Below are positions 6,528-29,389 of a stretch of 64,000 nt of DNA, piece by piece. Position 1 is the stretch's first letter. The number at the start of each line of letters is the position of its first letter. The stretch is from Leucobacter aridicollis. GTDB lineage: Bacteria > Actinomycetota > Actinomycetes > Actinomycetales > Microbacteriaceae. The translations under genes and the position numbers were made by a program. Under the pieces are notes generated by a model, which was given only the letters and a program-made list of their open reading frames with translations, made no database searches and was not told the origin of the DNA. The stretch lies in NCBI RefSeq assembly GCF_013409595.1, contig NZ_JACCBD010000001.1, positions 248,001-312,000 on the forward strand, written 5' to 3'.

Positions 6528-7370
6528 CTAGAAGATGACCCGCTGGCTGGTGAAAGCATCCGCGGGAGTTGAGGGCTGGAGCTGCGCGGAAGCGGTGAGG
6601 AGCTTGGCGGTTTGGGCAGCAGCTTCAATTGCGAGCTGCCCCAGCCTGCGAACCGTGTCCGGGGTGATGCGGTAGGTGGGCCCACCAATCCAAATCGCAA
6701 ATCGGGGCAAATCACCAATGAGGACGGGTGCCGCTACGGACGCGGCGTCCCGTTCTAGGGCTCCATAGAGCCAGGCGTAGCCGTGGGTACGGGCTGGCTC
6801 GAGGGTGTCGATGAACATCTCAAGCGTCGAAGGGTTCTCCTTCGGGTAACTCGGTTCGAGAAGCTCGCGTACTACTTCGGGGTCGCGATATGACAACAAG
6901 GATTTGCCAGTGGAGGTGAGCCACGGAGGTTGCACTCGTGGCGTTGACTTGAGTGTCTGGCCAATAAGTGAGGGGCCCACGTTCTGCAGCAGGACCACGA
7001 TGTCGTTGTCCTGCAGCATGTCGAACCCTGTCGTCTCCCCTGAAGCGTTCGACAGATTGGTCAAGATCTCGCGGATCGCCCGCAGCGTGCCAGTTTCCGT
7101 GAGCAGACCGCCGATGACTGATAGCGAGCCGACCGAAATGCGCGTCTTCTTCGTTTCATCATCGGTCACCAACATGCCTTCTTCTTCCAGCGTGGTGATG
7201 ATGCGGAAGCAAGTTGCCTTAGGCACGCCTGACAGGCGAGTGAGTTCGCTGAGCCCGATCCCTTGCGGAAAAGTCGAGATTACTCGGAGCACGCGCATGG
7301 ATCTATTGAGAAGTCCGTCGCGGCCTTTGCCTGTGTCTTCTGCGGTGTCGGGGCTCGTTGTTGAGGTCAC
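6528..7370 (-). CDS. IclR-family transcriptional regulator of the island
   Basis: 280 residues. An N-terminal winged helix-turn-helix (about 25-75, including LSELTRLSGVPKATCFRII) is followed by an IclR effector-binding domain, as usual for the family. It lies 12 bases after cofD on the same strand, so it is probably co-transcribed with cofD and the importer. A degenerate copy of the island palindrome (7384-7398) sits just upstream of its start and could mediate autoregulation. IclR proteins commonly bind about 15-bp palindromes and control adjacent aromatic or heterocycle catabolic genes, so this is the best candidate regulator. The effector is unknown. Confidence 0.88.
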   Translation of the reverse strand: MTSTTSPDTAEDTGKGRDGLLNRSMRVLRVISTFPQGIGLSELTRLSGVPKATCFRIITTLEEEGMLVTDDETKKTRISVGSLSVIGGLLTETGTLRAIREILTNLSNASGETTGFDMLQDNDIVVLLQNVGPSLIGQTLKSTPRVQPPWLTSTGKSLLSYRDPEVVRELLEPSYPKENPSTLEMFIDTLEPARTHGYAWLYGALERDAASVAAPVLIGDLPRFAIWIGGPTYRITPDTVRRLGQLAIEAAAQTAKLLTASAQLQPSTPADAFTSQRVIF

Positions 7371-7382
7371 AATCGCACTATA

Positions 7383-8375
7383 TCAAACCGATAGTCCACT
7401 TTTGGAGGCGTTTGTGAGCGTCGTCACGGACTCCATGAGTGCGTCAATGATGCGGTTGTCGGCTTCGTCCTGGCTGAAGAGAAGCGGCACATGTGTAATG
7501 AGCCCAGCAAACGTGTTTGGCAGGTTCTCGTCAATGGGGTCTGCAAGCCAAGCATCGAGCAATCCACCGGTGGAGCGGTCACCGTACCGCGCCGCGACTG
7601 CAGGTGCAGTGCATTCGACGCCAACGACGGCAAGGCAGCGGTCGAGCCATCCCCGGACCGGGCGGCCACCGATAACCGGTGAGAGTCCTATCACCGGCGC
7701 CGCGGCCTCGGCGATAGCCGCACGAATGCCGGGTATTGCAAGAATCGGATCGATTGAGACGACTGGGTTGGAGGGGGCGATCACGATGATGTCGGCAGTG
7801 GCAAGTGATTCGAGCACGCCAGGCGCGGGCTTTGAATCCGTAGCGTGGGGAAATGCGAACGCGGTTGGTGAGGGATTCGCCTGGTTCCGCACCCACCACT
7901 CCTGAAACCACATGGGGGCTGAGGCAGTGTGCTCGACGATTGTTGGCGAGGGGTCATCCGTTGCTGGAAGTACTGTGAAGCTGACGCCGTAGCGAGAGTT
8001 TAGGAGGCGGGTCGCCTCGCTGAGCGAATGGCCGTTCTCGAGGAGCTGCGTGCGCATGAGATTGTGGGCGATATCTAAGTCACCGAGCTGGAACCAGCCC
8101 TCCTCGGGAAGAACGCGCGATATCTCGGACATGGTTCGGGTTGAATCGTTGGCCCTTCCCCACCCGCGTCCCTTGTCTCCCATGTCAGCAAGGTGATAAG
8201 CCACCGAATCTAGGTCGGGAGAGATGCGCAGGCCCATGTGAGTGAAATCGTCGCCCACATTCACAATCGCCGTGCAATTGAACGGACGACCGGAAGCTTC
8301 ATTCCACGAATGGAGCGCTCTGGCGAACCTTGCGCCCCCAACGCCTCCGCTAAGGAACGTAATATTTCGGGTCAT
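7383..8375 (-). CDS. cofD: 2-phospho-L-lactate (PEP) transferase of F420 synthesis, CofD/FbiA
   Basis: 330 residues, typical of CofD/FbiA. The N-terminal LSGGVGGAR motif (8-16), NVGDDF (39-44) and the segment LRISPDLDSVAYHLADM are characteristic. The enzyme transfers the phospholactyl or phosphoenolpyruvyl group from the guanylated intermediate made by CofC to the deazaflavin FO, giving (dehydro-)F420-0. Its start overlaps the stop of the upstream importer ATPase by four bases (ATGA), so it is translationally coupled to a FecBCD-type transporter. That is not its usual context: fbiA normally sits beside fbiB. Its partners cofE and cofC are 15 kb away in the same island. Confidence 0.93.
   Translation of the reverse strand: MTRNITFLSGGVGGARFARALHSWNEASGRPFNCTAIVNVGDDFTHMGLRISPDLDSVAYHLADMGDKGRGWGRANDSTRTMSEISRVLPEEGWFQLGDLDIAHNLMRTQLLENGHSLSEATRLLNSRYGVSFTVLPATDDPSPTIVEHTASAPMWFQEWWVRNQANPSPTAFAFPHATDSKPAPGVLESLATADIIVIAPSNPVVSIDPILAIPGIRAAIAEAAAPVIGLSPVIGGRPVRGWLDRCLAVVGVECTAPAVAARYGDRSTGGLLDAWLADPIDENLPNTFAGLITHVPLLFSQDEADNRIIDALMESVTTLTNASKSGLSV
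7384..7398. promoter_or_regulatory. Degenerate copy of the island palindrome before iclR
   Basis: CAAACCGATAGTCCA matches TGAACCGATGGTTCA at 11 of 15 positions and keeps the core ACCGAT. It overlaps the last codons of cofD and lies 14-28 bases upstream of the regulator start, a plausible place for autoregulation. It is the weakest of the five sites. Confidence 0.35.
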
Positions 8376-9247
8376 GTCAGTGCCTCCAAGGGTTCGATTG
8401 GCGCGCGCAAGGCGGCCGGGGGATCGTCGCGGGTCCCTGCGAGTTGTGCAGCCTCTGTGGCCTGCGAAATGCGAGGTGGGAAGTCGTGTCGAAGGAGGTA
8501 GCGGCTTCTGCTCCCGTCACTGGTGTGGATCATGTCCACGCCCCAATGGTTTTGAATCATCGCGGGCGTGACCACACTTGCCGTTGGCCCCACCGCGACA
8601 ATGCTGCCGCAGTTCACGATGGCGGCACGGTCGGTGAACACCGAGGCAAGGTCGAGGTCGTGCAGACTGACGATGAGTGCAACACTGGTGCTCGCGAGAG
8701 TGCGAAGAAGCTCGACTGTGTCGCGGATGGCCGCAAGATCGAGGTGATTCGTCGGCTCGTCAAGGAGGAGGGCGCGTGGTTCCTGCGCGAGCGCACGAGC
8801 AATCTTCGCCCGTTGATGCTGGCCGCCGGAGAGTCTGTCGATCGGTGTGTGCTGAACGGAGTCGAGCCCGCATCGTTCAAGCGCGTGATCGACGACATAC
8901 CTGTCCGTTCGGGTGGTCGGGCGGAGCCAACCAGTAAACGGGACGCGGCCAAGCTGTACGAACTGCCGAATCGAAAGATCCGAAGGGGCAGTGGAGTCCT
9001 GCGCGACGAACGCAACGCGCCTTGCCCACTCGCGTTGCCCGAGCTGGGCTCGAGAAACGCCATCCCACGAGACGGCCCGATGAGACTCCGGGAGGTGCCC
9101 TGCGAGGCTGTGGAGCAGTGTGCTTTTCCCGGCGCCGTTCGGGCCGAGGAGCCCGAAGATCTCGCCAGGGCGGAAATCGAGCGCGGGAACGGAGAGCTTA
9201 AAGTCGTGCCCTCGGCTTGCTGAGAAGGGGAGCGTGTGAAGAGTCAT
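8372..9247 (-). CDS. FecE/BtuD-type ABC importer ATPase
   Basis: 291 residues. Walker A GPNGAGKST at 35-43, signature LSGGQ at 139-143, and Walker B plus D-loop LLLDEPTNHLD at about 160-170. This class pairs with FecCD-type permeases that import iron-siderophores, haem, cobalamin and similar large cofactors. Four-base overlaps with both neighbours place it in the unit binding protein, permease, ATPase, cofD. No iron-box or B12-riboswitch-like sequence was noticed at the head of this unit; instead the island palindrome lies there. The substrate may therefore be linked to F420 rather than to iron. Confidence 0.9.
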   Translation of the reverse strand: MTLHTLPFSASRGHDFKLSVPALDFRPGEIFGLLGPNGAGKSTLLHSLAGHLPESHRAVSWDGVSRAQLGQREWARRVAFVAQDSTAPSDLSIRQFVQLGRVPFTGWLRPTTRTDRYVVDHALERCGLDSVQHTPIDRLSGGQHQRAKIARALAQEPRALLLDEPTNHLDLAAIRDTVELLRTLASTSVALIVSLHDLDLASVFTDRAAIVNCGSIVAVGPTASVVTPAMIQNHWGVDMIHTSDGSRSRYLLRHDFPPRISQATEAAQLAGTRDDPPAALRAPIEPLEALT

Positions 9248-10296
9248 GAGTGTCCTTTCTGCTGCCGAAACATGATGACTCCAAACGCGACAGCGCCGAG
9301 CACGGAAGTCGTGATCCCGACCGGAAGCTCTTGTGGTTGCGCCGCGATGCGTGAGAGCGTGTCAGCCCACGTGAGAAGCAACGCGCCAATGAGTGCAGAG
9401 GCCACAAGGTGCTTCGTGACGCTCCCAGAGGCAAACGGTCGAGCAAGGTGAGGGACGATAAGACCGACAAAGCCGATCGCGCCAGAGACCGAGACCATTC
9501 CTGCCGCGACAAGCGCCGCGAGGGAGAGAACCCACGCCCGTGAGACCCGCACATTGATTCCTAGCGACTCGATGTCGTTGTCACCGAGCTTGAATACTCC
9601 GAGCAAACGGGATGATGCCGCCAACGCCGACCCGAAGACAGCTAGTGTGACGGCCGCGATCAAGACGGTGCTCCAGTTTGAGCCGCCAAGCGACCCGAGT
9701 AGCCAGTGCAGTACCTGGCGGTAGCTATCGCTGTCGGGGGATTGGAAAATGATGAAAGAAGTGCATGCGCTGAACAGTGCCGTGGTGGCCACTCCGGCAA
9801 GAATCACTCTTTCCGACGATGATCGGCGTTGACTACCGCTGAGGAAGAGAGTGACGGTGAGCGCGAGTGTTCCGCCCACGAAGGCTGCAAATGGGAGCGC
9901 GAGTGTAAGCCCAAGCAGAATGACTGAGACCGCTCCAAGCGAGGCTCCCGAGGATACGCCGAGTAGATAGGGCTCAGCGAGCGGGTTGCGAAGCACCGTT
10001 TGTAATGCAACCCCGGAGACCGCGAGCCCCGCGCCAACACATGCCGCTGTGAGTACGCGCGGAAGCCTGACTTGCGTCAGGATGACTTCTTGGGTACTCC
10101 AAGAGGTGGGATCAGTGCTCATCGCCGAGGCAAGCGTTTGCCAGGGGATAGGGACTGCTCCGACAGAAGCGGCAAGAAAAAGCGAGGCAAGGAGCGCTGC
10201 GAGCAACAGGGCGGCGGCAACGGCGAAGCGTGACCTTGCGGACGTTGCCCGCGGTGAAGCTGCCTGCCCGCGTTGACGCACCTGCTCGCTTGTCAC
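9244..10296 (-). CDS. FecCD-family ABC importer permease
   Basis: 350 residues if translation starts at the GTG overlapping the stop of the binding-protein gene (GTGA, 10293-10296). A longer reading frame extends upstream inside that gene, but its sequence is Arg-rich and not family-like. About ten membrane segments are visible. Family motifs include RLPRVLTAACVGAGLAVSGV, LRNPLAEPYLLGVSSGASLGA and the cytoplasmic-loop region IGFVGLIVPHLAR. It should form the homodimeric channel of the FecBCD-type system whose ATPase is coupled to cofD. Confidence 0.9.
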   Translation of the reverse strand: MTSEQVRQRGQAASPRATSARSRFAVAAALLLAALLASLFLAASVGAVPIPWQTLASAMSTDPTSWSTQEVILTQVRLPRVLTAACVGAGLAVSGVALQTVLRNPLAEPYLLGVSSGASLGAVSVILLGLTLALPFAAFVGGTLALTVTLFLSGSQRRSSSERVILAGVATTALFSACTSFIIFQSPDSDSYRQVLHWLLGSLGGSNWSTVLIAAVTLAVFGSALAASSRLLGVFKLGDNDIESLGINVRVSRAWVLSLAALVAAGMVSVSGAIGFVGLIVPHLARPFASGSVTKHLVASALIGALLLTWADTLSRIAAQPQELPVGITTSVLGAVAFGVIMFRQQKGHS

Positions 10297-11282
10297 TGTG
10301 AGGCCGCTGCGTTTGCGATTGACTCGACGGCGTCGATGTTTCGCACGCCGGCCTCCGTGGTTGCGAAGTCGACAACGATAAAGCGCTCGTCTTTCACCGC
10401 GCGCATCGAGCTGGCTGCTGGGTGACCTTCGAGCAACGCACGCTTCTTCTCCGCGGAGTTCCATGGCGCGTCTACCAGCACGATGACATCGGGATCGCTT
10501 GCGACAAGGCTCTCCCAGGGCATGCTGAACCAGCTTTGCGCTTCCGACTCTGCAACATTCGTGAGACCGGCTGCCCGCATGATCATGCTGGGAGTTCCAG
10601 TGCCACCGCCGACGAACGGCACGTCCTCGCCAGAGCTAAACCAGAGGGCGGATAGGGCGCCGTCGTTCTTTGGAATAGCTTTCAGCCTGCTGCGCTGATC
10701 ACTGATGATTGACTCTGCTTCGGTGCTTGCATCGAACATCGCCCCGACCTCCGAGATCATGTCGAATACGTCATCGAACTCGAGTGGATCGGAGCTCTCG
10801 CTGCCAAACACGCAGGCGGGTGGAGCAACGTAGGTGTTGATGCCGAGACCCAGGAGCTCCGTTCGAGTACCCAGCCCGTCCTGGCCGAGGTTCGACTCCC
10901 AGCCAGCGAACACAAAGTCGGGCTCTGCGGCAAGGAGTACCTCACGACTGGGAAGCTGGTCTGCCAGCACATTCGGTTCCCACCCTGCTGGTGCGAGGCC
11001 CTGCGGCACGGGACCATCAAGCATCGCGGAGCCAACGATGCGGCTTGACTGCCCGAGGGCCAGCAGCAGTTCGAGCGGCGTTGATTTCACGGTGACCACG
11101 CGCTCAGGCGGGACGTCGAGTTCAACAGTGAACCCGCAGTTGTCTATGGCGGAAGCTGGCCCTGGAGTGACCTGTGCGGGGGCCTCCGGAGAGAGTGATG
11201 AGCACCCAGGGAGAAGCGCTAGAGCGCCGACAGTGAGAAGTGAGACCGTATATTTGAACCGACGGTTCGTTTCAATTTTCAT
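10293..11282 (-). CDS. FecB/BtuF-type substrate-binding lipoprotein
   Basis: 329 residues. A lipoprotein signal (hydrophobic core ending LLPGC, lipidated Cys about 27) precedes a periplasmic-binding fold of the FecB/BtuF type (ERVVTVKSTPLELLLALG; PDFVFAGWESN; PDVIVLVDAPWNS). The start at 11282 is chosen because the lipoprotein signal begins there; the upstream extension shows no signal features. It opens a four- or five-gene unit ending in cofD and iclR. A near-perfect copy of the island palindrome lies inside codons 5-9. The ligand is unknown: iron-siderophore or corrinoid is the default for the family, but the gene context points to a deazaflavin. Confidence 0.88.
   Translation of the reverse strand: MKIETNRRFKYTVSLLTVGALALLPGCSSLSPEAPAQVTPGPASAIDNCGFTVELDVPPERVVTVKSTPLELLLALGQSSRIVGSAMLDGPVPQGLAPAGWEPNVLADQLPSREVLLAAEPDFVFAGWESNLGQDGLGTRTELLGLGINTYVAPPACVFGSESSDPLEFDDVFDMISEVGAMFDASTEAESIISDQRSRLKAIPKNDGALSALWFSSGEDVPFVGGGTGTPSMIMRAAGLTNVAESEAQSWFSMPWESLVASDPDVIVLVDAPWNSAEKKRALLEGHPAASSMRAVKDERFIVVDFATTEAGVRNIDAVESIANAAASQ
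11255..11269. promoter_or_regulatory. Island palindrome copy at the start of the importer unit
   Basis: TGAACCGACGGTTCG matches TGAACCGATGGTTCA at 13 of 15 positions and retains the GAACC-N3-GGTTC dyad. It lies 13-27 bases inside the binding-protein gene, where a bound repressor could block early elongation or the promoter. It is oriented toward the divergent catabolic genes across a 206-base intergenic region. Confidence 0.6.
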
Positions 11283-11440
11283 CGTTGAAAACCAATGCCT
11301 TGAGTTGGCCGCTGGGTCGCGGGGGTTCGTTGGTGCCTCGTAGTCTGAGGAATTTAAAGGATAGCGCAAGGCACCCGTGGTGGATAGTGTGGATTGCTCG
11401 GGGCTCAAGGGTTTAGGAAAAATGAGCTTGCAAAAATTAT

Positions 11441-11455
11441 GAACCGATGGTTCAC
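11441..11455. promoter_or_regulatory. Perfect palindromic operator of the catabolic operon
   Basis: TGAACC-GAT-GGTTCA is a perfect 6-3-6 inverted repeat 33 bases before the first catabolic gene (start 11489). TTGCAA at 11429-11434 could be a -35 element, so a bound protein would cover the promoter. This is the best of the five island copies and the likely primary operator of the IclR-type protein. Confidence 0.7.
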
Positions 11456-11488
11456 TGTATTCACGTCGCTAATGTCAGGGAGGACATG

Positions 11489-12058
11489 ATGTCACCACAG
11501 ATCCGCAAACTCGTTCGTTTGGTCGAGGAAATCCATAGCGAGAACGGTCAGCAGCTCGCCAAACCACACCGTGTTGCAGTTGCAGCGGCCGTCATTGCGA
11601 ACCCGTATGGCGCGGGCTACGTTGAAGACGTCGTCACGCTCGCTGACGAGCTTGGTGAAGCGATCGGGGAACTACTTGGCCCCGAATGCGTTCGACTCTT
11701 GGACGATGAGATTGAGGCCTTTGGTAAGGCAGCGTTGGTGGGCGTCGACGGCGAAACCGAGCACGGATCTGCGTTGATCCACAACCTGCGGTTTGGCAAC
11801 GTATTCCGGCGTGCAGCCGGCGGAACGGAACTGTTGCCTGCAGCGGAAAAGATTGGCTTGCAGGGAGCTTCCATCGACGTTCCGTTGAAGCACAAGACTG
11901 ACGCCAAGACGCGTTCGCATCATCAGACGGTCACCTTCCGCATTGAAGATGCCCCGCGCGCTGACGAGATTGTTGTCGCCTGCATCGCAGCGAATTCGGG
12001 GCGGCCGCTTGCTCGTCTCGCGACCTTCGGGGCCGAGGCTCCCGTGAGCATCGCCTAA
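11489..12058 (+). CDS. AA_synth (amino acid synthesis)-family protein
   Basis: 189 residues. The sequence IRKLVRLVEEIHSENGQ followed by KPHRVAVAAAVIANPYGAGYVEDV is typical of the small AA_synth family (formerly DUF1185), whose biochemical role is poorly known despite the name. I chose the second of two adjacent ATG codons because it is five bases from GGGAGG (11478-11483); the first, at 11486, is too close. It is the first gene of the catabolic run, 32 bases before the aminotransferase. Members are often found with LLM monooxygenase-like and amidohydrolase genes, so a role in heterocycle catabolism is likely but unspecified. Confidence 0.75.
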   Translation: MSPQIRKLVRLVEEIHSENGQQLAKPHRVAVAAAVIANPYGAGYVEDVVTLADELGEAIGELLGPECVRLLDDEIEAFGKAALVGVDGETEHGSALIHNLRFGNVFRRAAGGTELLPAAEKIGLQGASIDVPLKHKTDAKTRSHHQTVTFRIEDAPRADEIVVACIAANSGRPLARLATFGAEAPVSIA

Positions 12059-12090
12059 CGGCGAAGGCACCGACGAAAAGAGTCAGAATT

Positions 12091-13455
12091 ATGAACGCAG
12101 TCGCATGGTCAAAAGAAGAGCTCGTCGCGGCAGACAGTGAGTTCGTCATCCACTCGTGGTCGAAGCAGGGTGGTCTCAACGCCCGCCCCATCAAAGGCGC
12201 CGAGGGATCCTGGTTCTGGGATTACGATGGCAATCGTTTCCTGGACTTTCAGTCGCAGTTGGTAAACAGCAATCTTGGACACCAGCACCCCAAGCTTGTG
12301 CAGGCGATCAAAGATCAGGCTGACACGATGTGCTACATCGGGCCGGGATTTGCCGAGGAACAGCGAGCCCGTCTGGCGCAGAAACTCGCAGAGATTACGC
12401 CAGGTGACCTGAAGATGAGTTTCTTCACCACAGGTGGTGCCGCTGCGAACGAGAACGCCATCAGACTCGCGCGCCATGTCACGGGGCGCAACAAGATTGT
12501 TGCGCGATATCGCTCCTACCACGGGGCGACCGCGGGCGCGATCGCCTTGACCGGGGACCCGCGTCGTTGGCACGCTGAGCCCTCGATGCCGGGCGTGGTC
12601 CGAATGCTTGATCCTTACACTTACAGGTGCCCGGCGGGCCACCCCTCCCCGTGTCCCGTCTGCTCTGGTGGACCGCACCTGGAAGAGATTTTGCAGTTCG
12701 AGGACCCGTACTCGGTTGCCGCCGTCATTCTCGAACCAGTCACTGGGACTAACGGCCTCATCTACCCTGGTGAGAACTACCTGAGATCGATTCGTGAGGT
12801 GTGCAACAAGTACGGCATCATCCTCATTTTCGACGAAGTGATGGCTGGTTTCGGTCGCACGGGTGAGCTGTTCGCCTGTGACCACTGGGGCGTTACCCCA
12901 GACATTCTGATCACCGCAAAGGGTCTCAACTCAGGGTATGTCCCTCTCGGAGCGATGACAGTTTCGTCGAAGATCTCTGACTGGCTTCAGGACAATAAAT
13001 TCTGGGGAGGGCTCACCTATGCGGGGCATCCTCTCGCGTGCGCCTCCGCTGTCGCGTCGCTCGAAATCATGGAAGAAGAAGGGGTTGTCGACAACGCGCG
13101 GCGCCAGGGCGAGCGACTTGGAGCCGGCCTCGCTGAACTTGCGAAACGCCACCCGTCTATTGGTGACATTCGTGGGCGTGGACTGTTCTACGGGCTCGAA
13201 CTAGTTCGGAACCGTGACACCCGCGAGCCGCTCGTGCCGTTCAACGCGGTTGGGGAAGCCGCCAAGCCGATGCAGGAGATCAACAAGGCTGCAATGGCGA
13301 AGGGGCTGTACCTGGCATCGAACTTCAATGTGCTTCGGCTTACGCCGCCCCTCGTGATCAACGACGAGGAGATTGACTTGGCGCTCGAGACCCTCGACGA
13401 GGTGCTCGACATCGCCGATGTGCACTACGACACTGCGGGAGGCCCCGCATCATGA
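12091..13455 (+). CDS. Class III PLP aminotransferase (beta-alanine/omega-amino acid type)
   Basis: 454 residues, fold type I class III. Visible features are the cofactor-region motif FFTTGGAAANENAIRLAR, the RSYHGATAGA segment, IFDEVMAGFGRTG (PLP-contacting Asp), and the Schiff-base lysine in ITAKGLNSGYVPLGA. A Cys-rich insertion (CPAGHPSPCPVC, about 184-196) is also present. It overlaps the hydantoinase gene by four bases. After a dihydropyrimidinase and a beta-ureidopropionase, the natural substrate would be beta-alanine or 3-aminoisobutyrate, giving a semialdehyde. The amino acceptor (pyruvate or 2-oxoglutarate) cannot be told from sequence. Confidence 0.88.
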   Translation: MNAVAWSKEELVAADSEFVIHSWSKQGGLNARPIKGAEGSWFWDYDGNRFLDFQSQLVNSNLGHQHPKLVQAIKDQADTMCYIGPGFAEEQRARLAQKLAEITPGDLKMSFFTTGGAAANENAIRLARHVTGRNKIVARYRSYHGATAGAIALTGDPRRWHAEPSMPGVVRMLDPYTYRCPAGHPSPCPVCSGGPHLEEILQFEDPYSVAAVILEPVTGTNGLIYPGENYLRSIREVCNKYGIILIFDEVMAGFGRTGELFACDHWGVTPDILITAKGLNSGYVPLGAMTVSSKISDWLQDNKFWGGLTYAGHPLACASAVASLEIMEEEGVVDNARRQGERLGAGLAELAKRHPSIGDIRGRGLFYGLELVRNRDTREPLVPFNAVGEAAKPMQEINKAAMAKGLYLASNFNVLRLTPPLVINDEEIDLALETLDEVLDIADVHYDTAGGPAS

Positions 13456-14903
13456 CGATGGAATCAGCGACAAACGCGGGGCACACTACACTCATCGCCG
13501 GTGGCACCGTGGTGAATGCGGAAGGCTTCGTCCGTGCTGATGTGCTGGTGCGCGGCGAACGGATCGTTGGCATCGGGGTTGAGCAAGCGTGGGATGCTGA
13601 CGAGACGATCGACGCAACCGGGAAGTACATTTTGCCTGGTGGAATCGACGTTCACACTCACCTTGAGTATCCAATTGACGGCTTTACGACGCGTACGGCT
13701 GATGACTTCGCGACAGGCTCGGTTGCCGCTGCGTTCGGTGGCACTACTACCTTTATCGACTTCGTCAAGAAGCGCCCAGACGCTTCGCTGTTCGACACTT
13801 TTGTTGAGCGGCGCTCGATCGCAGAATCCAAGAGTATTGTCGATTTTGGACTGCATGCGATCGTGCCGCCATTGGTTCAGCAGCCGGATGTCCACGACGA
13901 TCTTGTTCGGCTCTTCACCGAGCAAGGCGTGTCGAGCTGGAAGTTCTTTATGGCGTACCCGGGTACGCAGATGGTTGAAGACGACGAGCTTCTCGCTGGA
14001 ATGGATCTCGCTCTCAAGCTCGGTGCGTTCCCGATGGTGCACGCTGAAAACGGGCACATGGTGAACCGGGCCGCTCAGCAGCTTCTGGATGAAGGGAAGA
14101 CTGCCGAGATTCACCACGTCGATGCTCACGGCCATTCCCAGGAGGCTGAGGCGGTTCACCGGGCGATTGTGCTCGCTGCAGAAGTGGGCACGCCCCTGTA
14201 CGTTGTCCACGTCTCGAGCGAGCAGGCTGCGGCCGAAATTGCAGCTGCGCGCAGTGAGGGCCTGCCCGTTTGGGGTGAAACTTGCCCGCAGTATCTCGTC
14301 ACCGCGCTGGAAGATTATCAAGAGCTGGGGGAGCGGGCCGCTGGTTACATTTGCTCACCACCGATTCGTGAACGAGCAAATCAGGCCGCCCTCTGGAAAT
14401 ACCTTGGTGCTGACGGACTCTCGACGCTCGCGACGGACCATGCTGCGTTCTGTATGGAGCAGCCCGAGGACTTGCCTCCGCAGAAGCTTCGGTCTCCAGG
14501 GTATTTCCCGAAGACTCCGAATGGGGTGCCCGGACTCGAAGACCGCATGATGGTCGCCTGGGAAGCCGGCGTCGTAGGCGGAGCGCTCGACCTCTGCAGG
14601 TTTGTCGAGATCACGGCTGCTCGACCCGCCAAACTCTTTGGAATGTACCCCAACAAGGGAACGATCTCCGTCGGAGCAGACGCGGACATCGTGGTGTGGG
14701 ACCCTGAGGCAGACCACACGATCACCGCTGCGGGTGGACATTCCCGAACCGACTACAACCTCTATGAGGGTATGCGCGTAAGCGGCCTTCCCGTAACGGT
14801 CATGAGCCGTGGGCGGACGCTGATCCTTGACCGTGAGCTGCAGGAGGTGGCCCGGACAACCCGTGGCCGCTACCTCGCTCGCGGCGCAGCCCAACTTTTC
14901 TAA
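13452..14903 (+). CDS. Dihydropyrimidinase/hydantoinase-family cyclic amidohydrolase
   Basis: 483 residues, usual for the family. Metal ligands are visible as DVHTHLE (66-72), the carbamylated lysine in SWKFFMAYPG (Lys about 164), VHAENGH (His about 197), VVHVSS, and Asp in LATDHAAF. It hydrolyses the cyclic amide of 5,6-dihydrouracil, dihydrothymine or hydantoins to the N-carbamoyl amino acid. It is translationally coupled (ATGA) to the aminotransferase and followed by the F420 redox pair. The sequence does not distinguish dihydropyrimidine from hydantoin as substrate. Confidence 0.9.
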   Translation: MTMESATNAGHTTLIAGGTVVNAEGFVRADVLVRGERIVGIGVEQAWDADETIDATGKYILPGGIDVHTHLEYPIDGFTTRTADDFATGSVAAAFGGTTTFIDFVKKRPDASLFDTFVERRSIAESKSIVDFGLHAIVPPLVQQPDVHDDLVRLFTEQGVSSWKFFMAYPGTQMVEDDELLAGMDLALKLGAFPMVHAENGHMVNRAAQQLLDEGKTAEIHHVDAHGHSQEAEAVHRAIVLAAEVGTPLYVVHVSSEQAAAEIAAARSEGLPVWGETCPQYLVTALEDYQELGERAAGYICSPPIRERANQAALWKYLGADGLSTLATDHAAFCMEQPEDLPPQKLRSPGYFPKTPNGVPGLEDRMMVAWEAGVVGGALDLCRFVEITAARPAKLFGMYPNKGTISVGADADIVVWDPEADHTITAAGGHSRTDYNLYEGMRVSGLPVTVMSRGRTLILDRELQEVARTTRGRYLARGAAQLF

Positions 14904-20356: not shown

Positions 20357-21638
20357 TGCAACGTTGTCGGCCGCCGCGGTGGACGAGGCTCGTACTGGGC
20401 CCCACGAGGCGGCGCTCCGCACCCTGCGACAGGCTACTGAACACCTAGGACTGAGTGATGTGGTGCGGCAAGCGTATGCCCATTGCAAACGAGAGGTCGC
20501 CGTGTCGTTCCCGGTGCGCATGGATGATGGCAGCAGCCGCATCGTTACGGGCTACCGAGTGCATCACAATACTGCGCTTGGCCCGGCAAAGGGCGGCATT
20601 AGGTTCTCCCAGAACGTCGACATTGATGAGGTCCGGGCGCTCTCCATGTGGATGACCTGGAAGTGCGCGTTGCTCGGAATTCCCTACGGCGGAGCAAAGG
20701 GCGGGTTAGCGATTAACCCCCGCGATTTCAGCAAAGCAGAGCTGGAGCGTGTGACACGTCGTTATACACGCGAGCTTGCAGATGTCTTTGGGCCGGACAA
20801 AGACATCCCCGCGCCCGACATCGGCACAGATCAACAGGTCATGGCTTGGATTCTTGACGAGTATTCGGTGGTCGCGGGGCACCTTGCTCACGGTGTTGTC
20901 ACTGGGAAGCCGCTCGAGCTAGGCGGATCGCTAGGCCGGGCACTCGCTACCTCGCGTGGCGTGACTGAGATCGCCTTAGCCGCGGTCCGCGAGGAACTCG
21001 GTGAGCCGGTTGGTGCGACCGCGATCGTGCAGGGTTTTGGCAAGGTCGGAGAGGGAGTTGCGCAGCTCCTGCACGAGGCAGGAGTGCGGGTCGTTGCGGT
21101 CAGTGATGAGTTTGCAGCTCTGAGCAATGTGGACGGCCTCGACATTCCCGCACTGCAGCTTCACGTTGGAGAGCATGGTCGCCTCGAGGGCTTCGCTGGT
21201 GCGACAGCCCGAGAGCGGGACTCGGTCTTGTTTGATGAGGCAGACCTGCTCGTTCCCGCTGCGGTCGAAGGCGTGTTGCACGAGGGCAACGCTCATCTTG
21301 TTCGGGCACGCATCGTTGTGGAAGGCGCGAATGGGCCAACCACGCCAGAGGGAGACCGAGTTCTCGGCGAACGAGGGATTATCGTTGTCCCCGATATCCT
21401 CGCCAATGCAGGCGGTGTTGTGGTGTCGTACTTCGAATGGGCACAGGCCAACCAGGGATACCGTTGGAGTGAGCAGGTTGTTGAGGAGCGTCTGCAGCAG
21501 CGAATGCTTTCTGCCTGGAATCGGGTGAAAGCATTCGCCGACAACGAGGATCTAGATCTCCGCGCGGCTGCGACAGTGCTTGCTGTCTCTGAAGTGCACC
21601 GAGCCCAACAGCTGCGCGAAGAACTTGTCGCCGGCTAG
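20349..21638 (+). CDS. Glu/Leu/Phe/Val dehydrogenase
   Basis: 429 residues. The glutamate-dehydrogenase motifs are visible: GGIRFSQNVDIDEVRALSMWMTWK, the catalytic-lysine region IPYGGAKGG, PAPDIGTDQQVMAWI, and the nucleotide-binding VQGFGKVGEGVAQLL. It overlaps the alcohol dehydrogenase by eight bases. Within this operon it may assimilate ammonia released by the amidohydrolases or regenerate 2-oxoglutarate for the aminotransferase. Length and motifs fit hexameric glutamate dehydrogenase, but leucine or valine dehydrogenase activity is not excluded. Confidence 0.9.
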   Translation: MASATLSAAAVDEARTGPHEAALRTLRQATEHLGLSDVVRQAYAHCKREVAVSFPVRMDDGSSRIVTGYRVHHNTALGPAKGGIRFSQNVDIDEVRALSMWMTWKCALLGIPYGGAKGGLAINPRDFSKAELERVTRRYTRELADVFGPDKDIPAPDIGTDQQVMAWILDEYSVVAGHLAHGVVTGKPLELGGSLGRALATSRGVTEIALAAVREELGEPVGATAIVQGFGKVGEGVAQLLHEAGVRVVAVSDEFAALSNVDGLDIPALQLHVGEHGRLEGFAGATARERDSVLFDEADLLVPAAVEGVLHEGNAHLVRARIVVEGANGPTTPEGDRVLGERGIIVVPDILANAGGVVVSYFEWAQANQGYRWSEQVVEERLQQRMLSAWNRVKAFADNEDLDLRAAATVLAVSEVHRAQQLREELVAG

Positions 21639-21696: not shown

Positions 21697-23145
21697 ATGG
21701 AACGGAATGAACTCTATGTTGGAGGGTCGTGGGTCACGCCAAGCACTTCCAGCCGCGGGGAGAACGTCGACTCGAATACCGAGGAACACCTAGGGAGCTA
21801 CGCTCTGGCGGGCCCAGAAGAGGTCGATCGTGCGGTGGCAGCGGCGCGCGCGACGCTCAACGATCGCAATGGATGGGCGGGGTATTCGCCCCAGCAGCGA
21901 GCCGCCGTAATGCGTCGGTTCGCCGACGCGATTGAACGACAACGGGACGCGATTGGCGGTCTCATCTCGCGAGAGGTCGGAACTCCATTCGAGCGTTCGC
22001 GGTTCAGCAATGCCGACACTGCTTCGTCGCTTCTGCGGTTCTACGCCGACATCATCGCGTCAACTGAGCTGGAGGATCTGCGGCCGGCCGGCCGAGGACA
22101 TTCGCTTGTGCGCCGCGAGGCCATCGGTGTCGTCGGGATGATCGCGCCCTGGAACTTTCCGCTCAGCACGTTGTTCTTCAAGCTTGCTCCTGCGCTCGCC
22201 GCTGGATGCACCGCCGTGATCAAGCCAGCATCGCTCACCGCACTGAACTCGTTTCTGATTGCTGATGCGGCGGCCGAAGCGGGCATTCCGGCAGGCGTGA
22301 TCAACATCCTGCCGTGTGACCGTGCGACGGGTGACCACCTCATCGGACATCCCGGGATCGACAAGATCGCGTTCACTGGCTCGACGCCCGTCGGTCGCAA
22401 GATTGGGCGTATGTGTGGCGAGAACCTGAAGCCAGTCACGCTCGAACTTGGTGGAAAATCGGCAGCGCTGCTGCTTGAGGACGCTTCCGTCGATACGCTC
22501 ATTTCCGAGTTGCACGACTTGAGCTTCTCGAACAACGGACAGGCCTGCACGAACAACTCACGCCTTATCGTGCCCGATGTGCTGTACGACGATGTCGTCG
22601 ATGCTGTCGCGGCCGAGGTGAACCGATGGAAAGTAGGGAACTCGTTTGACCCGGAGACAGTCATTGGGCCGGTCGTGAGCGCAGGGCACCGCGAATCCAT
22701 TGAACGCTACTACCGGATCGCGCGCGAGGAAGGCGGCCGGGCTGTTGCGGGCGGGAACGCAGTGACCGGCAGAGGGTTCTTCGTCGAGCCGACCGTGTTC
22801 GCAGATGTAACACCCGACATGACGATCTTCCGCGAAGAGGTGTTCGGCCCGGCTGTATCGATCACGCGCTACAGCGGGGACCTCGAGGAGGGAATCGATC
22901 TCGCCAACGACTCGGAGTACGGGCTGTCGGGCGCCGTCTACACCGCCGACGAGACCCTAGGCATCGAAACCGCGCGGCGCATTGAGACTGGGACCGTTGC
23001 GTACAACATGTCGAACTTCGACATTGGTGCACCGTTCGGGGGTAGGAAGAACTCAGGGGTGGGCTTCGAGCTCGGTGCGGAAGCAATCATCCCGTACCTG
23101 CACTACAAGACGATCTTCACGCCGCAGGTTCCCGCGGGGTTCTGA
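21697..23145 (+). CDS. NAD(P)-dependent aldehyde dehydrogenase
   Basis: 482 residues. The start at 21697 has GGAG upstream. The class motifs are present: APWNFPLS, IKPASLT, FTGSTPVGR, the general base Glu250 in LELGGKS, and the catalytic Cys284 in NNGQACTN; EEVFGPAVSITRY and the C-terminal PFGGRKNSGVGFELG follow. It would oxidise the semialdehyde made by the aminotransferase or the alcohol dehydrogenase. It has no obvious CoA-acylating (methylmalonate-semialdehyde type) features, so a free acid product is more likely. Confidence 0.9.
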   Translation: MERNELYVGGSWVTPSTSSRGENVDSNTEEHLGSYALAGPEEVDRAVAAARATLNDRNGWAGYSPQQRAAVMRRFADAIERQRDAIGGLISREVGTPFERSRFSNADTASSLLRFYADIIASTELEDLRPAGRGHSLVRREAIGVVGMIAPWNFPLSTLFFKLAPALAAGCTAVIKPASLTALNSFLIADAAAEAGIPAGVINILPCDRATGDHLIGHPGIDKIAFTGSTPVGRKIGRMCGENLKPVTLELGGKSAALLLEDASVDTLISELHDLSFSNNGQACTNNSRLIVPDVLYDDVVDAVAAEVNRWKVGNSFDPETVIGPVVSAGHRESIERYYRIAREEGGRAVAGGNAVTGRGFFVEPTVFADVTPDMTIFREEVFGPAVSITRYSGDLEEGIDLANDSEYGLSGAVYTADETLGIETARRIETGTVAYNMSNFDIGAPFGGRKNSGVGFELGAEAIIPYLHYKTIFTPQVPAGF

Positions 23146-23184: not shown

Positions 23185-23221
23185 ATCTCCACAACTCACG
23201 TATCGCAAAGGAGCGAGGCGC

Positions 23222-24022
23222 ATGCAACGAACACCTGGGTTAGAGATTATTCCGCTTATTGGTCTGCCCGAATTCACGCCGGACCACTCACTCGCGACGG
23301 AGATTGTTCGTTCTCTCGTTGGAATTGCGGTTGATGACGGTGACGTGCTTGCTGTCACAAGCAAGGTTGTTTCAAAGGTTGAGGGCTGTTTCGTCCCTGC
23401 CTCGGAACGCGCCGAACTCATCGAACGAGACACGGTCCGCGTTGTTGCGCGTATGCGCGGTCCCAACGCGTCTGCAATCGTCGAAAACCGTCTCGGGGTG
23501 GTTGCCGCAGCCGCGGGCGTGGACGCGAGCAATGTCGCTGGAGACTGGGTGCTCGCGCTCCCCGAGGATCCTGATGCGTCTGCTCGAAGGCTCGCGAACG
23601 AACTTCGAGACGCACTCGGCATTGATCTTGGGATCGTGATCACGGACACTGTCGGTCGGCCGTGGCGCTACGGGCAAACTGACATTGCGATCGGAAGTGC
23701 GAATGTTGCCCTCTACGCAGATGAGCGGGGAGGCAAGGACACCGCAGGGAAACCGCTTACGGTCACACAACGCTGCGTCGCTGATGAGATCGCAGCTGCT
23801 TCAGACCTCGTGAAAGGAAAGACAGCCGGAATCCCCGTAGCCCTCGTGCGGGGGTTGGGCGAGTATGTTGTTCCTGGGACTGATCAGCGCGCCCGGCACA
23901 TCAACCGAGACCTCGAGTTGGATCTTTTCTCCCTCGGAACGCAAGAGGCTTTCGAAGAAGGGTACCGGTCCGCACTCGCCGCAGTTGCGGCGGGCAAGGT
24001 GCTGGACCCTCGGGCGGAGTAG
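23222..24022 (+). CDS. cofE: Coenzyme F420-0:L-glutamate ligase, stand-alone CofE
   Basis: 266 residues. IIPLIGLPEFTPDHSL, the DVLAVTSKVVSKVEG segment, VITDTVGRPWRYGQTDIAIG and VRGLGEYVVPGTD are typical of CofE. It adds glutamate residues to F420-0 with GTP. The ATG at 23222 follows AAAGGAG at good spacing. Most actinobacteria carry FbiB, a CofE domain fused to a nitroreductase-like FMN domain that reduces dehydro-F420-0; here only the ligase domain is present and the reading frame stops where CofE ends. Either that reduction is done elsewhere or the cofactor is made from phospholactate. cofC follows after four bases. Confidence 0.92.
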   Translation: MQRTPGLEIIPLIGLPEFTPDHSLATEIVRSLVGIAVDDGDVLAVTSKVVSKVEGCFVPASERAELIERDTVRVVARMRGPNASAIVENRLGVVAAAAGVDASNVAGDWVLALPEDPDASARRLANELRDALGIDLGIVITDTVGRPWRYGQTDIAIGSANVALYADERGGKDTAGKPLTVTQRCVADEIAAASDLVKGKTAGIPVALVRGLGEYVVPGTDQRARHINRDLELDLFSLGTQEAFEEGYRSALAAVAAGKVLDPRAE

Positions 24023-24026
24023 GCCG

Positions 24027-24659
24027 ATGGACGCTGCGACTGGGTGGACCGCTATCGTTCCTGTTCGCGGGTTTGGCACTGCGAAATCACGGTTGCGACC
24101 CGACCTGCCCGCTTCAACTGTGTCGGATATTGCGCGGCGTCTTGCCCAGGGATGCGTGAGAACCCTGAAACGTGCGGCGCAAGTCGACGAGGTTATCGTC
24201 GTGTCTGACGTTGCAGTTCAGGAGCACTTTCCAGATGCTCAAGTGACCTTCCTTGTGCAGCAGGTTGGGGGCGGGCTCAACGGGGCCGTCCGCGAGGGGC
24301 TCGCGCTAGCTGCCAGGCGCAGTCCCCACGCCCCACGTCTGGTGATCCATGCTGACCTTCCCGGGATCAACCCTCAGGCCGTGGACTCGCTCCTTGCCGA
24401 CCTGCCAACCGGGGGCAAAGACGTTTACATTCCGGATCGTGCCGGAACAGGAACGACTGCTCTTACTTTGCGTGCAGGCAGCCGACGCCCGGTTGGGTTT
24501 GGGGTGGGTTCTGCCGCGCGCCACCTGGCCCTCGGGTACGCACCGGTCAGGCTGCCGGCCGACAGCGTGCTGCGCAATGACCTCGACACACTCGAGAACT
24601 TGCGGGCACTTCGGTGGGGGTCAACCATCGACCTTTTCTCCGAGAACCCCGCGGCCTGA
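24027..24659 (+). CDS. cofC: 2-phospho-L-lactate (PEP) guanylyltransferase CofC/FbiD
   Basis: 210 residues. The nucleotidyltransferase start WTAIVPVRGFGTAKSRL, the VIHADLPGI metal motif, and DRAGTGTTALTLR are typical of CofC/FbiD. It activates phospholactate or phosphoenolpyruvate with GTP for transfer to FO by CofD. It starts four bases after cofE and ends the 13-kb divergent run, 130 bases before the next transcription unit. Confidence 0.9.
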   Translation: MDAATGWTAIVPVRGFGTAKSRLRPDLPASTVSDIARRLAQGCVRTLKRAAQVDEVIVVSDVAVQEHFPDAQVTFLVQQVGGGLNGAVREGLALAARRSPHAPRLVIHADLPGINPQAVDSLLADLPTGGKDVYIPDRAGTGTTALTLRAGSRRPVGFGVGSAARHLALGYAPVRLPADSVLRNDLDTLENLRALRWGSTIDLFSENPAA

Positions 24660-24756
24660 GCGCAAGAATCGAACCCCGTTCGGCGCACAAAGCTGTGTGA
24701 TCGAAATGTGATGAGATTCGTAGCTGCGGATTCCGGAGCCGTCGGCTACCATAAAT

Positions 24757-24771
24757 AGAACCAATGGTTCA
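24757..24771. promoter_or_regulatory. Island palindrome before the ThiXYZ-like transporter
   Basis: AGAACC-AAT-GGTTCA keeps the GAACC-N3-GGTTC dyad and matches the perfect site at 13 of 15 positions. It lies 18 bases before the permease start (24789), directly after a TACCAT/CATAAA -10-like sequence, so it would overlap the transcription start. It indicates that the transporter unit has its own promoter under the same regulator. Confidence 0.65.
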
Positions 24772-24788
24772 CTTTTGAAAGGGATGCA

Positions 24789-27326: not shown

Positions 27327-27369
27327 ATACCTATACCGAAGTTCTGTACCTCAATTAAAGGAGACATCA

Positions 27370-28521
27370 ATGAAGATGCAACACCTCTCTAGCCGGACTC
27401 TGCTCGCGCTTGGGGCAACGTCAGCCCTCGTTGTCGGGCTTGCTGGCTGCTCGGGTATGTCGGACCCGGGAAGCTCGAGTCAGCCCGCAAATGAGAATTG
27501 CGAAAAGGTCGACAACGTCACCGTTGTGCTGCAGTGGGTCGCGCAGGCGCAGTTCGCCGGGTACTTTGCCGCTGCCGAGGAGGGATTTTATGCGGATCAA
27601 TGCCTGAACGTGACGATTCAGGAGGGAGGCACGAATGTCGTGCCCCAACAGGTTCTCGCGTCAGGCAACGCGCAGTTTGCGGTGAGTCACGTGGTGAAGA
27701 GCATGGCCTCTCGGGAAGAGGGCGCGGACATTGTGAACATTTCGCAGATCTTTCAGCACGGAGCGTATCTCGAAGTGGCATGGGCCGACTCCGGGATCGA
27801 AAAGCTCCAGGACTTTGTGGGGAAGAAGGTTGGTTCCTGGGGCGGCGGCAACGACCTGACCTTGAGATCGGCTCTCGAAGGCGAGGGTGTCGACTTCGAG
27901 AAGGACTTTGACGTCGTCCAGCAGCCGTTCGATATGTCACTGCTGTTGAACCGCGAAGCTGACGTCGTTCAGGCGAAGACGTACAACGAGTATGCACAGC
28001 TGCTCGCCACGAAGAACCCAGACACGGGCGACCTCTACCAGCCCGAGGACTTCTCTGTCATTAACCTCCAGGAGCTCGGCTACCAGACACTGGAGGACGG
28101 GATCTACGCGGGAGGAAAGTGGCTCAACGAAGGCGACAACGCTGACATCGCGGCCCGATTCCTCGCCGCAACTTATCAGGGGTGGGCTTCGTGCCGCGAC
28201 GACGCCAAGCAGTGCGTTGGCTACGTTCTCGAACGGGGCAGCGCGCTCGGAGAGAGCCACCAGATGTGGATGATGAATGAGATCAACAAGCTCATCTGGG
28301 ATGGGGCAACGGCAGAGATCGGAACGCTCAAGCAGGCTGATTGGGACCAGACGATCGACATAGCCTTGGCTGGTGGAGTGATTTCGGAGAAGCCTGATGC
28401 GGACGCCTTCCGGACCGATGTTCACACAGCAGCACTCGGTCTGCTCGAGGAAAGTGACGTCGACTTGATCGGTGCTGACTTCGAACCGATGACGGTTACT
28501 CTCACCGAGGGTGGGAAGTAA
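27370..28521 (+). CDS. NMT1/THI5-like (ThiY-type) substrate-binding lipoprotein
   Basis: 383 residues. The start at 27370 has AAAGGAG upstream; the signal ends GLAGC with lipidated Cys27. The mature part begins VTVVLQWVAQAQFAGYFAAAEEGFYADQCLNV, characteristic of the NMT1/THI5-like family that binds pyrimidine-type ligands such as thiamine precursors. Further motifs are GGTNVVPQQVLASGNAQFAV and KKVGSWGGGNDLTLRSAL. It is the fourth gene of the importer operon and its stop overlaps an island palindrome. A pyrimidine or related N-heterocycle is the best ligand guess. Confidence 0.88.
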   Translation: MKMQHLSSRTLLALGATSALVVGLAGCSGMSDPGSSSQPANENCEKVDNVTVVLQWVAQAQFAGYFAAAEEGFYADQCLNVTIQEGGTNVVPQQVLASGNAQFAVSHVVKSMASREEGADIVNISQIFQHGAYLEVAWADSGIEKLQDFVGKKVGSWGGGNDLTLRSALEGEGVDFEKDFDVVQQPFDMSLLLNREADVVQAKTYNEYAQLLATKNPDTGDLYQPEDFSVINLQELGYQTLEDGIYAGGKWLNEGDNADIAARFLAATYQGWASCRDDAKQCVGYVLERGSALGESHQMWMMNEINKLIWDGATAEIGTLKQADWDQTIDIALAGGVISEKPDADAFRTDVHTAALGLLEESDVDLIGADFEPMTVTLTEGGK

Positions 28522-28533
28522 ACCGATGGTTGA
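28519..28533. promoter_or_regulatory. Island palindrome variant at the amidase start
   Basis: TAAACCGATGGTTGA matches the perfect site at 13 of 15 positions. It includes the stop codon of the binding-protein gene and the start codon of the following amidase. It may tune expression of the last gene, or the resemblance could be partly chance because coding constraints apply on both sides. Confidence 0.4.
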
Positions 28534-29389
28534 CCCGGGCGAACGCTCGAGTACCAGCATCGTCGTAGCGTGCGCGCAAACGGACCCAATTCTGGGCGAC
28601 ATTGAAGCAAACACCGACATGACTGTGGAAGCTATCCGGGGCGCGGTAGCGCTCGGAGCGGACGTTATTGTCCTTCCGGAGTGTGCGAGTGGGGGCTGGG
28701 CGTTCGCCGACCGGGCAGAGTCTGCGGCTGCTGCGCAACCGCTCACCGGCTCGACAATTCGCGCCTGGGAACAGGTGGCCATGGAGCACAACGTCTGGGT
28801 CAGCGGCGGCTTCGGCGAGAAGGCAGACGGGGGCGCGCTGTACAACAGCGCGGTGCTCGTCGGTCCAAACGGGGTCGAATCGCTCTACCGCAAGGTCCAT
28901 CTTTGGAACTCGGAGAACCTGGCGTTTGATCCAGGCAACCTTGGGTACCCCGTTACCGAAACCCCGTTTGGACGGGTGGGGATGTTGATCTGCTACGACG
29001 CGTGGGTACCTGAGAGCTTTCGATCGCTGGCCGTGGCGGGCGCCGACCTGGTTCTCGCTCCGAGCGACTGGGTACCCAACCCACACCAACCCGCAGACAT
29101 GCCGCCCCTTGCGCACCTCATGGTCACCGCAGGCGCGCACAGCAATCAAATGTATGTCGCAGCTGCAAGTAGGTACGGCATCGAGCGCGGGCAGCAGTTC
29201 ATCGGAAGCAGCATGATCGCCGATCACACCGGATGGCCGTTGGCACGGGCCGGAGGGGGCGAAGAGATCATCGTCGCGCAGATTGACCCCATAGGCTCTC
29301 GTAGCGCACGTCGAAACGACCCCTTCAACAGGCCGCTATGGGACCGGCGTGTAAGCCAGTACGAGATGGGTGAGGTCAGAGCACATTGA
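28526..29389 (+). CDS. Second nitrilase-superfamily amidase
   Basis: 287 residues from the ATG at 28526; an upstream GTG at 28511 is possible but lies in the previous gene without a ribosome binding site. The triad is Glu52 (LPECASGG), Lys123 (YRKVHLW) and Cys156 (ICYDAWVPES). It differs clearly from the amidohydrolase at 16646-17467, so it is not a recent duplicate. It ends the ABC-importer unit and may act on an amide or N-carbamoyl compound brought in by that importer. Its family branch (carbamoylase, omega-amidase or aliphatic amidase) is not clear to me. Confidence 0.82.
   Translation: MVDPGERSSTSIVVACAQTDPILGDIEANTDMTVEAIRGAVALGADVIVLPECASGGWAFADRAESAAAAQPLTGSTIRAWEQVAMEHNVWVSGGFGEKADGGALYNSAVLVGPNGVESLYRKVHLWNSENLAFDPGNLGYPVTETPFGRVGMLICYDAWVPESFRSLAVAGADLVLAPSDWVPNPHQPADMPPLAHLMVTAGAHSNQMYVAAASRYGIERGQQFIGSSMIADHTGWPLARAGGGEEIIVAQIDPIGSRSARRNDPFNRPLWDRRVSQYEMGEVRAH

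Follow-up and report, generated by a model that had tools for sequence, protein, structure and literature searches.

How could a dihydropyrimidinase gene cluster reduce its ring substrate when no dihydropyrimidine dehydrogenase is at hand? This question is raised by a catabolic island of Leucobacter aridicollis, lying at 6528-29389 of the window, by which we mean the whole stretch of 64,000 nucleotides analysed here (contig positions 248001-312000 of a 3.57 Mb genome in a single contig, completeness 99.71%). Our best reading, to which we give a probability of about 0.68 on the grounds of sequence comparison, is that its genes specify a form of reductive pyrimidine-type catabolism dependent on F420, in which a luciferase-like (LLM) enzyme replaces PydA, the host imports the cofactor precursor FO, and an IclR regulator co-controls the genes through a palindrome. 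Under this proposal, NADPH would reduce F420 through an NADPH:F420 oxidoreductase (FNO), and the Mer-like LLM enzyme would take over the role of the PydA/PreTA flavoprotein, using F420H2 as the hydride donor for an oxo-pyrimidine-type ring, be it that of uracil/thymine or of a near analogue. The dihydro ring would be opened by the dihydropyrimidinase (DHPase), the carbamoyl group removed by CN_hydrolase 1 (CNH1) and the beta-amino acid converted to a semialdehyde by a class III aminotransferase (AT3), with glutamate dehydrogenase recycling 2-oxoglutarate and aldehyde and alcohol dehydrogenases (ALDH, ADH) taking the last steps. F420 binding and the reductive direction of the LLM enzyme are predicted, as is its substrate, for which uracil and thymine are the first candidates.

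The minus-strand half of the island comprises an IclR regulator, cofD and three importer genes. The plus-strand half runs from a PF06684 gene to cofC in the order PF06684, AT3, DHPase, LLM, FNO, CNH1, NCS1, ADH, glutamate dehydrogenase, ALDH, cofE, cofC, and ends with a Tau/Ssu-type ABC importer and CN_hydrolase 2. Families were called from NCBIfam bit scores against their cut-offs and a Pfam scan of 20 island proteins. The catabolic genes are:

11486..12058, plus strand: PF06684 (AA_synth/DUF1185) protein, 191.6 bits
12091..13455, plus strand: class III aminotransferase, predicted omega/beta-amino acid:2-oxoglutarate transaminase (PF00202; nearest structure 6jix, E 5.7e-112)
13452..14903, plus strand: dihydropyrimidinase/hydantoinase (TIGR02033 494.3 bits, cut-off 393.25)
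14961..15965, plus strand: Mer-like LLM enzyme, predicted F420H2-dependent ring reductase (PF00296; nearest structures Mer/FGD)
15975..16646, plus strand: FNO, npdG (TIGR01915 190.5 bits, cut-off 149.8)
16646..17467, plus strand: CN_hydrolase 1, predicted N-carbamoyl-amino acid (ureidopropionase-like) amidase (PF00795; E40, K113, C150, R153)
17576..19204, plus strand: NCS1 nucleobase/allantoin-type permease (TIGR00800 382 bits, cut-off 353.1)
19247..20356, plus strand: zinc alcohol dehydrogenase, N,N-dimethyl-4-nitrosoaniline (NDMA)-dependent type (TIGR03989 398.8 bits, below cut-off 440)
20349..21638, plus strand: glutamate dehydrogenase (PF00208/PF02812)
21697..23145, plus strand: aldehyde dehydrogenase (PF00171 475.2 bits)

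Every gene named in an earlier note on this DNA was located within the island by profile matches; the three F420-0-type importer genes (8372-11282), PF06684, glutamate dehydrogenase and CN_hydrolase 2 had gone unnamed there. The same note held that the pathway does without dihydropyrimidine dehydrogenase, naming a PydA/PreTA-type enzyme elsewhere as a finding that would refute its reading, and the absence was borne out. A whole-genome search with PF01180 (DHO_dh) returned a single protein, the quinone-dependent dihydroorotate dehydrogenase PyrD (NCBIfam 473.1 bits, cut-off 433), and no dehydrogenase of the PydA/PreTA type was found in the genome. Among the 44 searched genomes of the window's LLM group, defined below (the L015 genome is not included), PF01180 has no match in one (G303) and only a fragment in another (G325). 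Reductive pyrimidine degradation has been described, in the portion of the source considered here, with PydA-type flavoproteins working on NAD(P)H or ferredoxin (PMC7332683). The island resembles that Pyd system (PydA-PydE) in clustering a DHPase, a predicted ureidopropionase-type amidase, a class III aminotransferase of predicted beta-amino acid type and semialdehyde enzymes, with the same expected order of steps. It differs in lacking PydA, in whose place stands a presumably F420-dependent enzyme of the LLM family, and in holding cofactor genes within the cluster.

For the LLM protein, the PDB offers eight matches at E<=1e-10, every one a Mer or FGD structure (closest, Mer 1z69, E 1.2e-35), and a profile search of the PDB gave Mer, FGD or F420 alcohol dehydrogenase in 9 of 10 cases. 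Mer structures are thus its nearest solved ones, but orthology with Mer was rejected, as the protein lies far below the equivalog cut-off of TIGR03555 (160.9 vs. 348.7 bits). RutA also belongs to the PF00296 family, which includes FMN enzymes, so an FMN-dependent monooxygenase opening the ring oxidatively, like RutA, has to be weighed; moreover, the section of the source considered here reports that certain F420-dependent reductases bind FMN as well (PMC6279831). We regard this as very unlikely in view of the eight Mer or FGD structures, the F420 genes found in the same loci and the Pfam scan of the 20 island proteins, which showed neither a flavin reductase nor an isochorismatase. The Rut pathway as such was rejected: RutA is not in the best 25 of 28 families for the island LLM, nor among the families matched at E<=1e-30 by the seven other LLMs, and no RutB isochorismatase domain occurs in the 20 proteins. 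Besides the island LLM, the genome has seven PF00296 proteins, with TIGR04036, TIGR03858, TIGR04027 or TIGR03558 as their best families, none of which is labelled F420 (two proteins over cut-off, five below). A second LLM protein within the window (58081-58935, minus strand) is nearest to TIGR03858 (412.4 bits, cut-off 462.25).

Relatives were taken as the best 80 of 312 sequences from a genome scan, giving 79 loci, and the nearest named ones are from L. luti and L. chironomi. A quick tree by maximum likelihood, with 80 rows and rooted at the midpoint, fell into two sides, both with an approximate likelihood-ratio support (SH-aLRT) of 100: one of 47 rows (46 loci and the window) and one of 33 rows. 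L044 and L050 were flagged as long branches. We labelled an LLM as pathway-associated when at least two of DHPase, amidase and AT3 stood beside it. This label applies to 45 of the 47 rows, the other two being L015, whose contig begins 60 bases before the LLM gene, and L050, a contig of 4.9 kb; on the tree it changes 3 times against a shuffled mean of 23.9, and 0/500 shuffles were as low. The earlier note had suggested looking for the co-occurrence of these genes in other genomes, and such co-occurrence, seen in 44 of the 46 loci, is beyond chance. Residues fixed differently between the two LLM groups include V165/T, D183/N and F184/Y (36/36 and 11/11 vs. 33/33). Because the shared GAWWEP motif and the EGR start served as patterns in the scan, their distribution is biased, which does not apply to QQPH (244-247) and WPA (268-270).

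Within the window's group, gene presence was counted by tblastn, since calling of open reading frames is noisy on high-GC DNA. The 35 actinobacterial loci (LLM identity at least 58%; L010-L043 and L064) contain AT3 in 34 cases, CNH1 in 34, DHPase in 30, IclR relatives in 30, PF06684 in 29, FNO in 16 and FbiC in 7. Additionally, AT3, DHPase and CNH1 occur all three in 10 of the 11 deep-branching loci (nine from Chloroflexota, Aeromicrobium L044 and the short contig L050). A small gene of the carboxymuconolactone decarboxylase family was also noted in 10 of these 11 (L044, L047, L060, L061, L065, L068, L070, L072, L079, L086), lying in L061 between the aminotransferase and the LLM gene. If our reading of the island holds, it would give a physiological role to an F420-type enzyme clade in actinobacteria and Chloroflexota.

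The 33-row side of the tree bears on what the LLM enzymes do. The LLM gene has XDH-family or SsnA-like neighbors in 23 of its 33 loci vs. 0/46 in the window's group (E<=1e-10, 40% of query length). SsnA-like matches account for 14 of the 33, four of them at 30% identity or less, and ten loci have neither XDH nor SsnA. By NCBIfam, the SsnA matches of L053 score over the cut-off (504.6 and 521.5 bits) and those of L077 just below it (413.7 and 420.9 bits). A bioinformatic study of 2025, in the portion considered here, proposed for reductive uric acid breakdown in Chloroflexota that an F420-dependent luciferase-family enzyme, named 'yanthine reductase', acts instead of YgfK or UacX, the latter called a PydA homologue (PMC12507026). 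Going by locus content, the second LLM group is probably that of this proposal. The island is like that variant in carrying an F420-type LLM in place of a PydA-like reductase, but where the uric acid locus is marked by SsnA and XDH, the 46 loci have DHPase, CN_hydrolase and class III aminotransferase instead. On this reading, the two LLM groups would hold equivalent steps in two ring-reducing pathways, an analogy that favors the earlier suggestion that the LLM enzyme acts reductively in place of the flavoprotein. The claim that no pathway of this kind had been described stands only in part: the same swap has been proposed for uric acid, as far as that portion of the source goes, and for the pyrimidine/dihydropyrimidinase version none was found in the open-licence literature, which is no proof of absence. 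Membership of the island in the uricolytic XDH/SsnA type was rejected, with neither gene among the 20 island proteins scanned nor in any of the 46 loci. One locus of the second group, L053, has the order XdhA, serine dehydratase, LLM, SsnA and threonine synthase-like (4826-13619) and is a possible F420-type reductive uric acid locus.

These purine-type relatives also leave room for the same F420 ring reductase acting on a substrate other than uracil or thymine, such as a pyrimidine that is modified or N-substituted, or a ureide derived from a purine. The uptake genes are not uracil-specific, two CN_hydrolases occur in one island, and in Nocardioides loci a thiamine diphosphate (ThDP) enzyme takes the usual place of DHPase. 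Conversely, XDH-family and SsnA-like genes are missing from all 46 group loci, and the island has a single cyclic amidohydrolase, therefore one ring opened. We consider such a substrate a real possibility, somewhat short of an even chance; since it overlaps with the pyrimidine-type reading, the odds of the two are not additive.

Two further systems invite comparison. Fht systems, named for the picrate reductase, include an NpdG partner and an IclR-type regulator, and we know of no dihydropyrimidinase/ureidopropionase arm associated with them. The Fht enzyme resembles the proposed one in being an F420H2-dependent hydride transferase of the LLM type whose target is an electron-poor ring, according to the section of the source considered here (PMC8498797), and its substrate is a nitroaromatic, unlike the pyrimidine-type ring proposed for the island. 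SSGG-03002/NpsU is described, in the portion of the report at hand, as a putative F420/FMN-dependent protein needed for reduction of the uracil C5-C6 bond (knock-out, nuclear magnetic resonance), for which the in vitro assay failed (PMC10714638). It belongs to mureidomycin/napsamycin biosynthesis, not catabolism, and the likeness to the LLM enzyme drawn here is one of described function.

A pathway of this kind would need F420, and the genes for its supply are:

7383..8375, minus strand: cofD, 2-phospho-L-lactate transferase, F420 biosynthesis (TIGR01819 270.6 bits, cut-off 257.45)
8372..9247, minus strand: ATPase of an F420-0-type importer, predicted FO import (best NCBIfam TIGR03873, 213.9 bits, below cut-off 372.4)
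9244..10296, minus strand: permease of the F420-0-type importer (best NCBIfam TIGR03869, 304.7 bits, below cut-off 437.35; refined start)
10293..11282, minus strand: substrate-binding protein of the F420-0-type importer (best NCBIfam TIGR03868, 369.3 bits, below cut-off 392.4; refined start)
23222..24022, plus strand: cofE, F420-0:L-glutamate ligase, single domain (TIGR01916 205.3 bits, cut-off 180.65; refined start)
24027..24659, plus strand: cofC, 2-phospho-L-lactate guanylyltransferase (TIGR03552 95.4 bits, below cut-off 105; PF01983 35.8 bits, cut-off 22)

No CofH match was found in a profile search of the host genome, while cofC, cofD, cofE and FNO sit in the island; its FNO is the sole TIGR01915 match of the genome over the cut-off, two weaker ones falling below. 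For each of the three importer genes, the best-scoring family is one that NCBI calls a putative F420-0 ABC transporter. Because CofC and CofD are kept, FO and not F420-0 would be the logical cargo. We thus infer that the host, not making FO, takes it up through the F420-0-type ABC system, with CofC, CofD and CofE completing F420; this would add a case of F420 precursor salvage. In a survey of 54 genomes of the genus, CofD was detected at E<=0.001 in six (five over cut-off) and the LLM in five, all of them inside the six CofD genomes and none with a CofH match (0/5). The chance of placing 5 inside 6 of 54 is ~2e-6, computed by hand and ignoring shared ancestry. The sixth CofD genome, G296, is without the LLM and has CofH-type matches below cut-off, located ~12 kb from CofD (contig C20, 222330-237232); it may itself make F420 for a different use. 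A CofH fragment without CofD was seen in G285. Among 249 genomes drawn from the family, with at most 8 LLM candidates scored per genome, CofD was present in 111 (108 over cut-off) and the LLM in two, both of which have CofD. Among the 44 LLM-group genomes, CofD exceeds the cut-off in 42 and is matched at E<=0.001 in 43; the first count is safer, because at E<=0.001 the model matches in E. coli too. The F420 involvement put forward in the earlier note gains support from the linked F420 genes, these CofD counts, the genus-level co-occurrence and the Mer/FGD structures.

The neighborhood itself carries the same signal in other forms. FbiC lies within 8/46 loci of the window's group vs. 0/33 of the other, and FNO, cofC or FbiC within 18/46. 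L019 has a full FbiC in the catabolic locus (1469 bits, cut-off 1018), and L044 has FbiC and cofC (by tblastn only). The layouts of Leucobacter, Streptomyces, Microbacterium and Aeromicrobium look like different ways to tie F420 supply to the same catabolic set. A chance neighborhood of F420 and catabolic genes with no common function could be argued from the 28/46 loci that have no F420-related gene nearby, though many of their contigs are short. We hold it to be extremely improbable, given that FbiC occurs in loci of Streptomyces, Microbacterium and Aeromicrobium, that cofC/D/E accompany the importer in Leucobacter, that LLM and CofD co-occur across the genus, and that a palindrome recurs. 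The palindrome and its candidate regulator are placed as follows:

6528..7370, minus strand: IclR-family regulator, candidate for control of the island (PF09339/PF01614)
11255..11269, no strand: operator-like palindrome TGAACC-N3-GGTTCA, one mismatch, just within the start of the substrate-binding gene; a like site occurs in L011
11440..11454, no strand: operator-like palindrome without mismatch, in the gap that separates the catabolic operon from the importer/cofD operon
24757..24771, no strand: operator-like palindrome, one mismatch, in the gap ahead of the ABC importer operon

These three are the sites of the window with at most one mismatch. With up to two mismatches there are six (also 28519, 44593 and 47110) against 1.72 expected, and 0/100 shuffles reach six. 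The site at 11255, inside the substrate-binding gene, is weaker evidence than that at 11440. A count over the 35 actinobacterial loci, again allowing one mismatch, gave 36 sites in 26 loci, vs. 0 to 2 in ten first-order Markov controls; 34 of the 36 lie at -60 to +330 bases from the match start of a cluster gene, 19 at PF06684 and 7 at the first ABC permease. Elsewhere, there is one site in the 33 loci of the second LLM group and none in the deep-branching loci. The sites were first flagged as terminator-like, and single sites might be hairpins instead; the palindrome is possibly the operator of the IclR regulator, which would then co-control both operons.

Concerning the catabolic enzymes, DHPase residues H68, H70, K164, H197, H253 and D329, which we take to be metal ligands, are invariant in 40 aligned proteins (rows below 41% identity left out). 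In CNH1, E40, K113, C150 and R153 are invariant in 45 aligned proteins (rows below 36% identity left out); they presumably include the catalytic triad, and the arginine after the cysteine (R153) is assumed to mark carboxylate substrates. The nearest structure of AT3 is a taurine:2-oxoglutarate aminotransferase (378 bits, the next 272.7), a likeness that fits a beta-amino acid substrate and the neighboring glutamate dehydrogenase. As the solved structures closest to the DHPase are D-hydantoinases, and allantoin permease is a further match of the NCS1 protein, below cut-off, an imported hydantoin or dihydropyrimidine might be taken by the DHPase directly. The F420 enzyme would then act elsewhere or oxidatively, with FNO, whose reaction is reversible, returning electrons to NADPH. 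This is unlikely in our view, given that LLM and DHPase occur together across two phyla and that in the proposed uricolytic locus the other LLM group takes the place of the reductase.

Several observations count against the F420-dependent pathway proposed here. Four of the 44 LLM-group genomes (G309, G312, G314, G315) carry a second long PF01180 match. FNO is adjacent in only 16 of the 35 actinobacterial loci and in none of the 11 deep-branching ones. The CofD count of 42/44 is partly background, because CofD is common in the family (111/249), and an exception to it is Agrococcus L038, which shows no CofD, though its PyrD is likewise only a fragment. All three importer genes score under their cut-offs, as listed, and CofE is a single domain without the C-terminal part of FbiB, which leaves the reduction of dehydro-F420, should that compound be made, unaccounted for. 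The best named match of CNH1 is N-carbamoylputrescine amidase, at 185.6 bits and below the cut-off of 410. The split of the tree is also imperfect, as L084 and L087, with identical LLMs on the 33-row side, have DHPase and CNH1 within 8 kb on the opposite strand, and with them the pathway label, besides SsnA-like/XDH genes. Finally, the Nocardioides loci with a ThDP enzyme between aminotransferase and LLM are four (L026, L029, L030, L064). The nearest named families of the L064 enzyme are 5-guanidino-2-oxopentanoate decarboxylase and acetolactate synthase, far below cut-off. In L064, two genes stand 8-10 kb upstream, one allantoinase/DHPase-like and the other a second CN_hydrolase, and L026 and L030 have weak DHPase-type matches at a similar position.

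A wider proposal, which we put forward tentatively and rate just under even, is that a superclade of F420H2-dependent LLM ring reductases replaces PydA-like flavoproteins in pyrimidine- and purine-type catabolism of Actinomycetota and Chloroflexota, and that the F420 economy of this Leucobacter serves this pathway alone, on imported FO. If so, ring degradation would hang on a cofactor precursor scavenged from neighbors. On the reading of the island itself, a third, low-potential donor acting via an unrelated fold would account for dihydropyrimidinase clusters without PydA. The residue differences fixed between the LLM groups and the palindrome offer direct handles for testing.

The remaining features of the island follow cofC:

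24789-25727, 25720-26508, 26508-27326, plus strand: permease, ATPase and permease of a Tau/Ssu-type ABC importer (PF00528, PF00005, PF00528)
27370..28521, plus strand: NMT1/THI5-like substrate-binding protein (PF09084 117.2 bits)
28526..29389, plus strand: CN_hydrolase 2, nitrilase-like amidase (PF00795 173.6 bits)

Homologue lists of PF06684 and of DHPase added no function for either; the structure paper on PF06684, in the portion considered here, gives a fold and a guessed role in amino-acid metabolism, with no reaction (PMC2954203). After the island, ordinary cell-envelope genes follow at 29464-33672 (LytR-CpsA-Psr, VanZ-like, CDP-glycerol glycerophosphotransferase/glycosyltransferase). Just ahead of it, at 298-5025, lies a large protein with lamin-tail, Exo_endo_phos, Metallophos and 5'-nucleotidase domains, which could free nucleosides.

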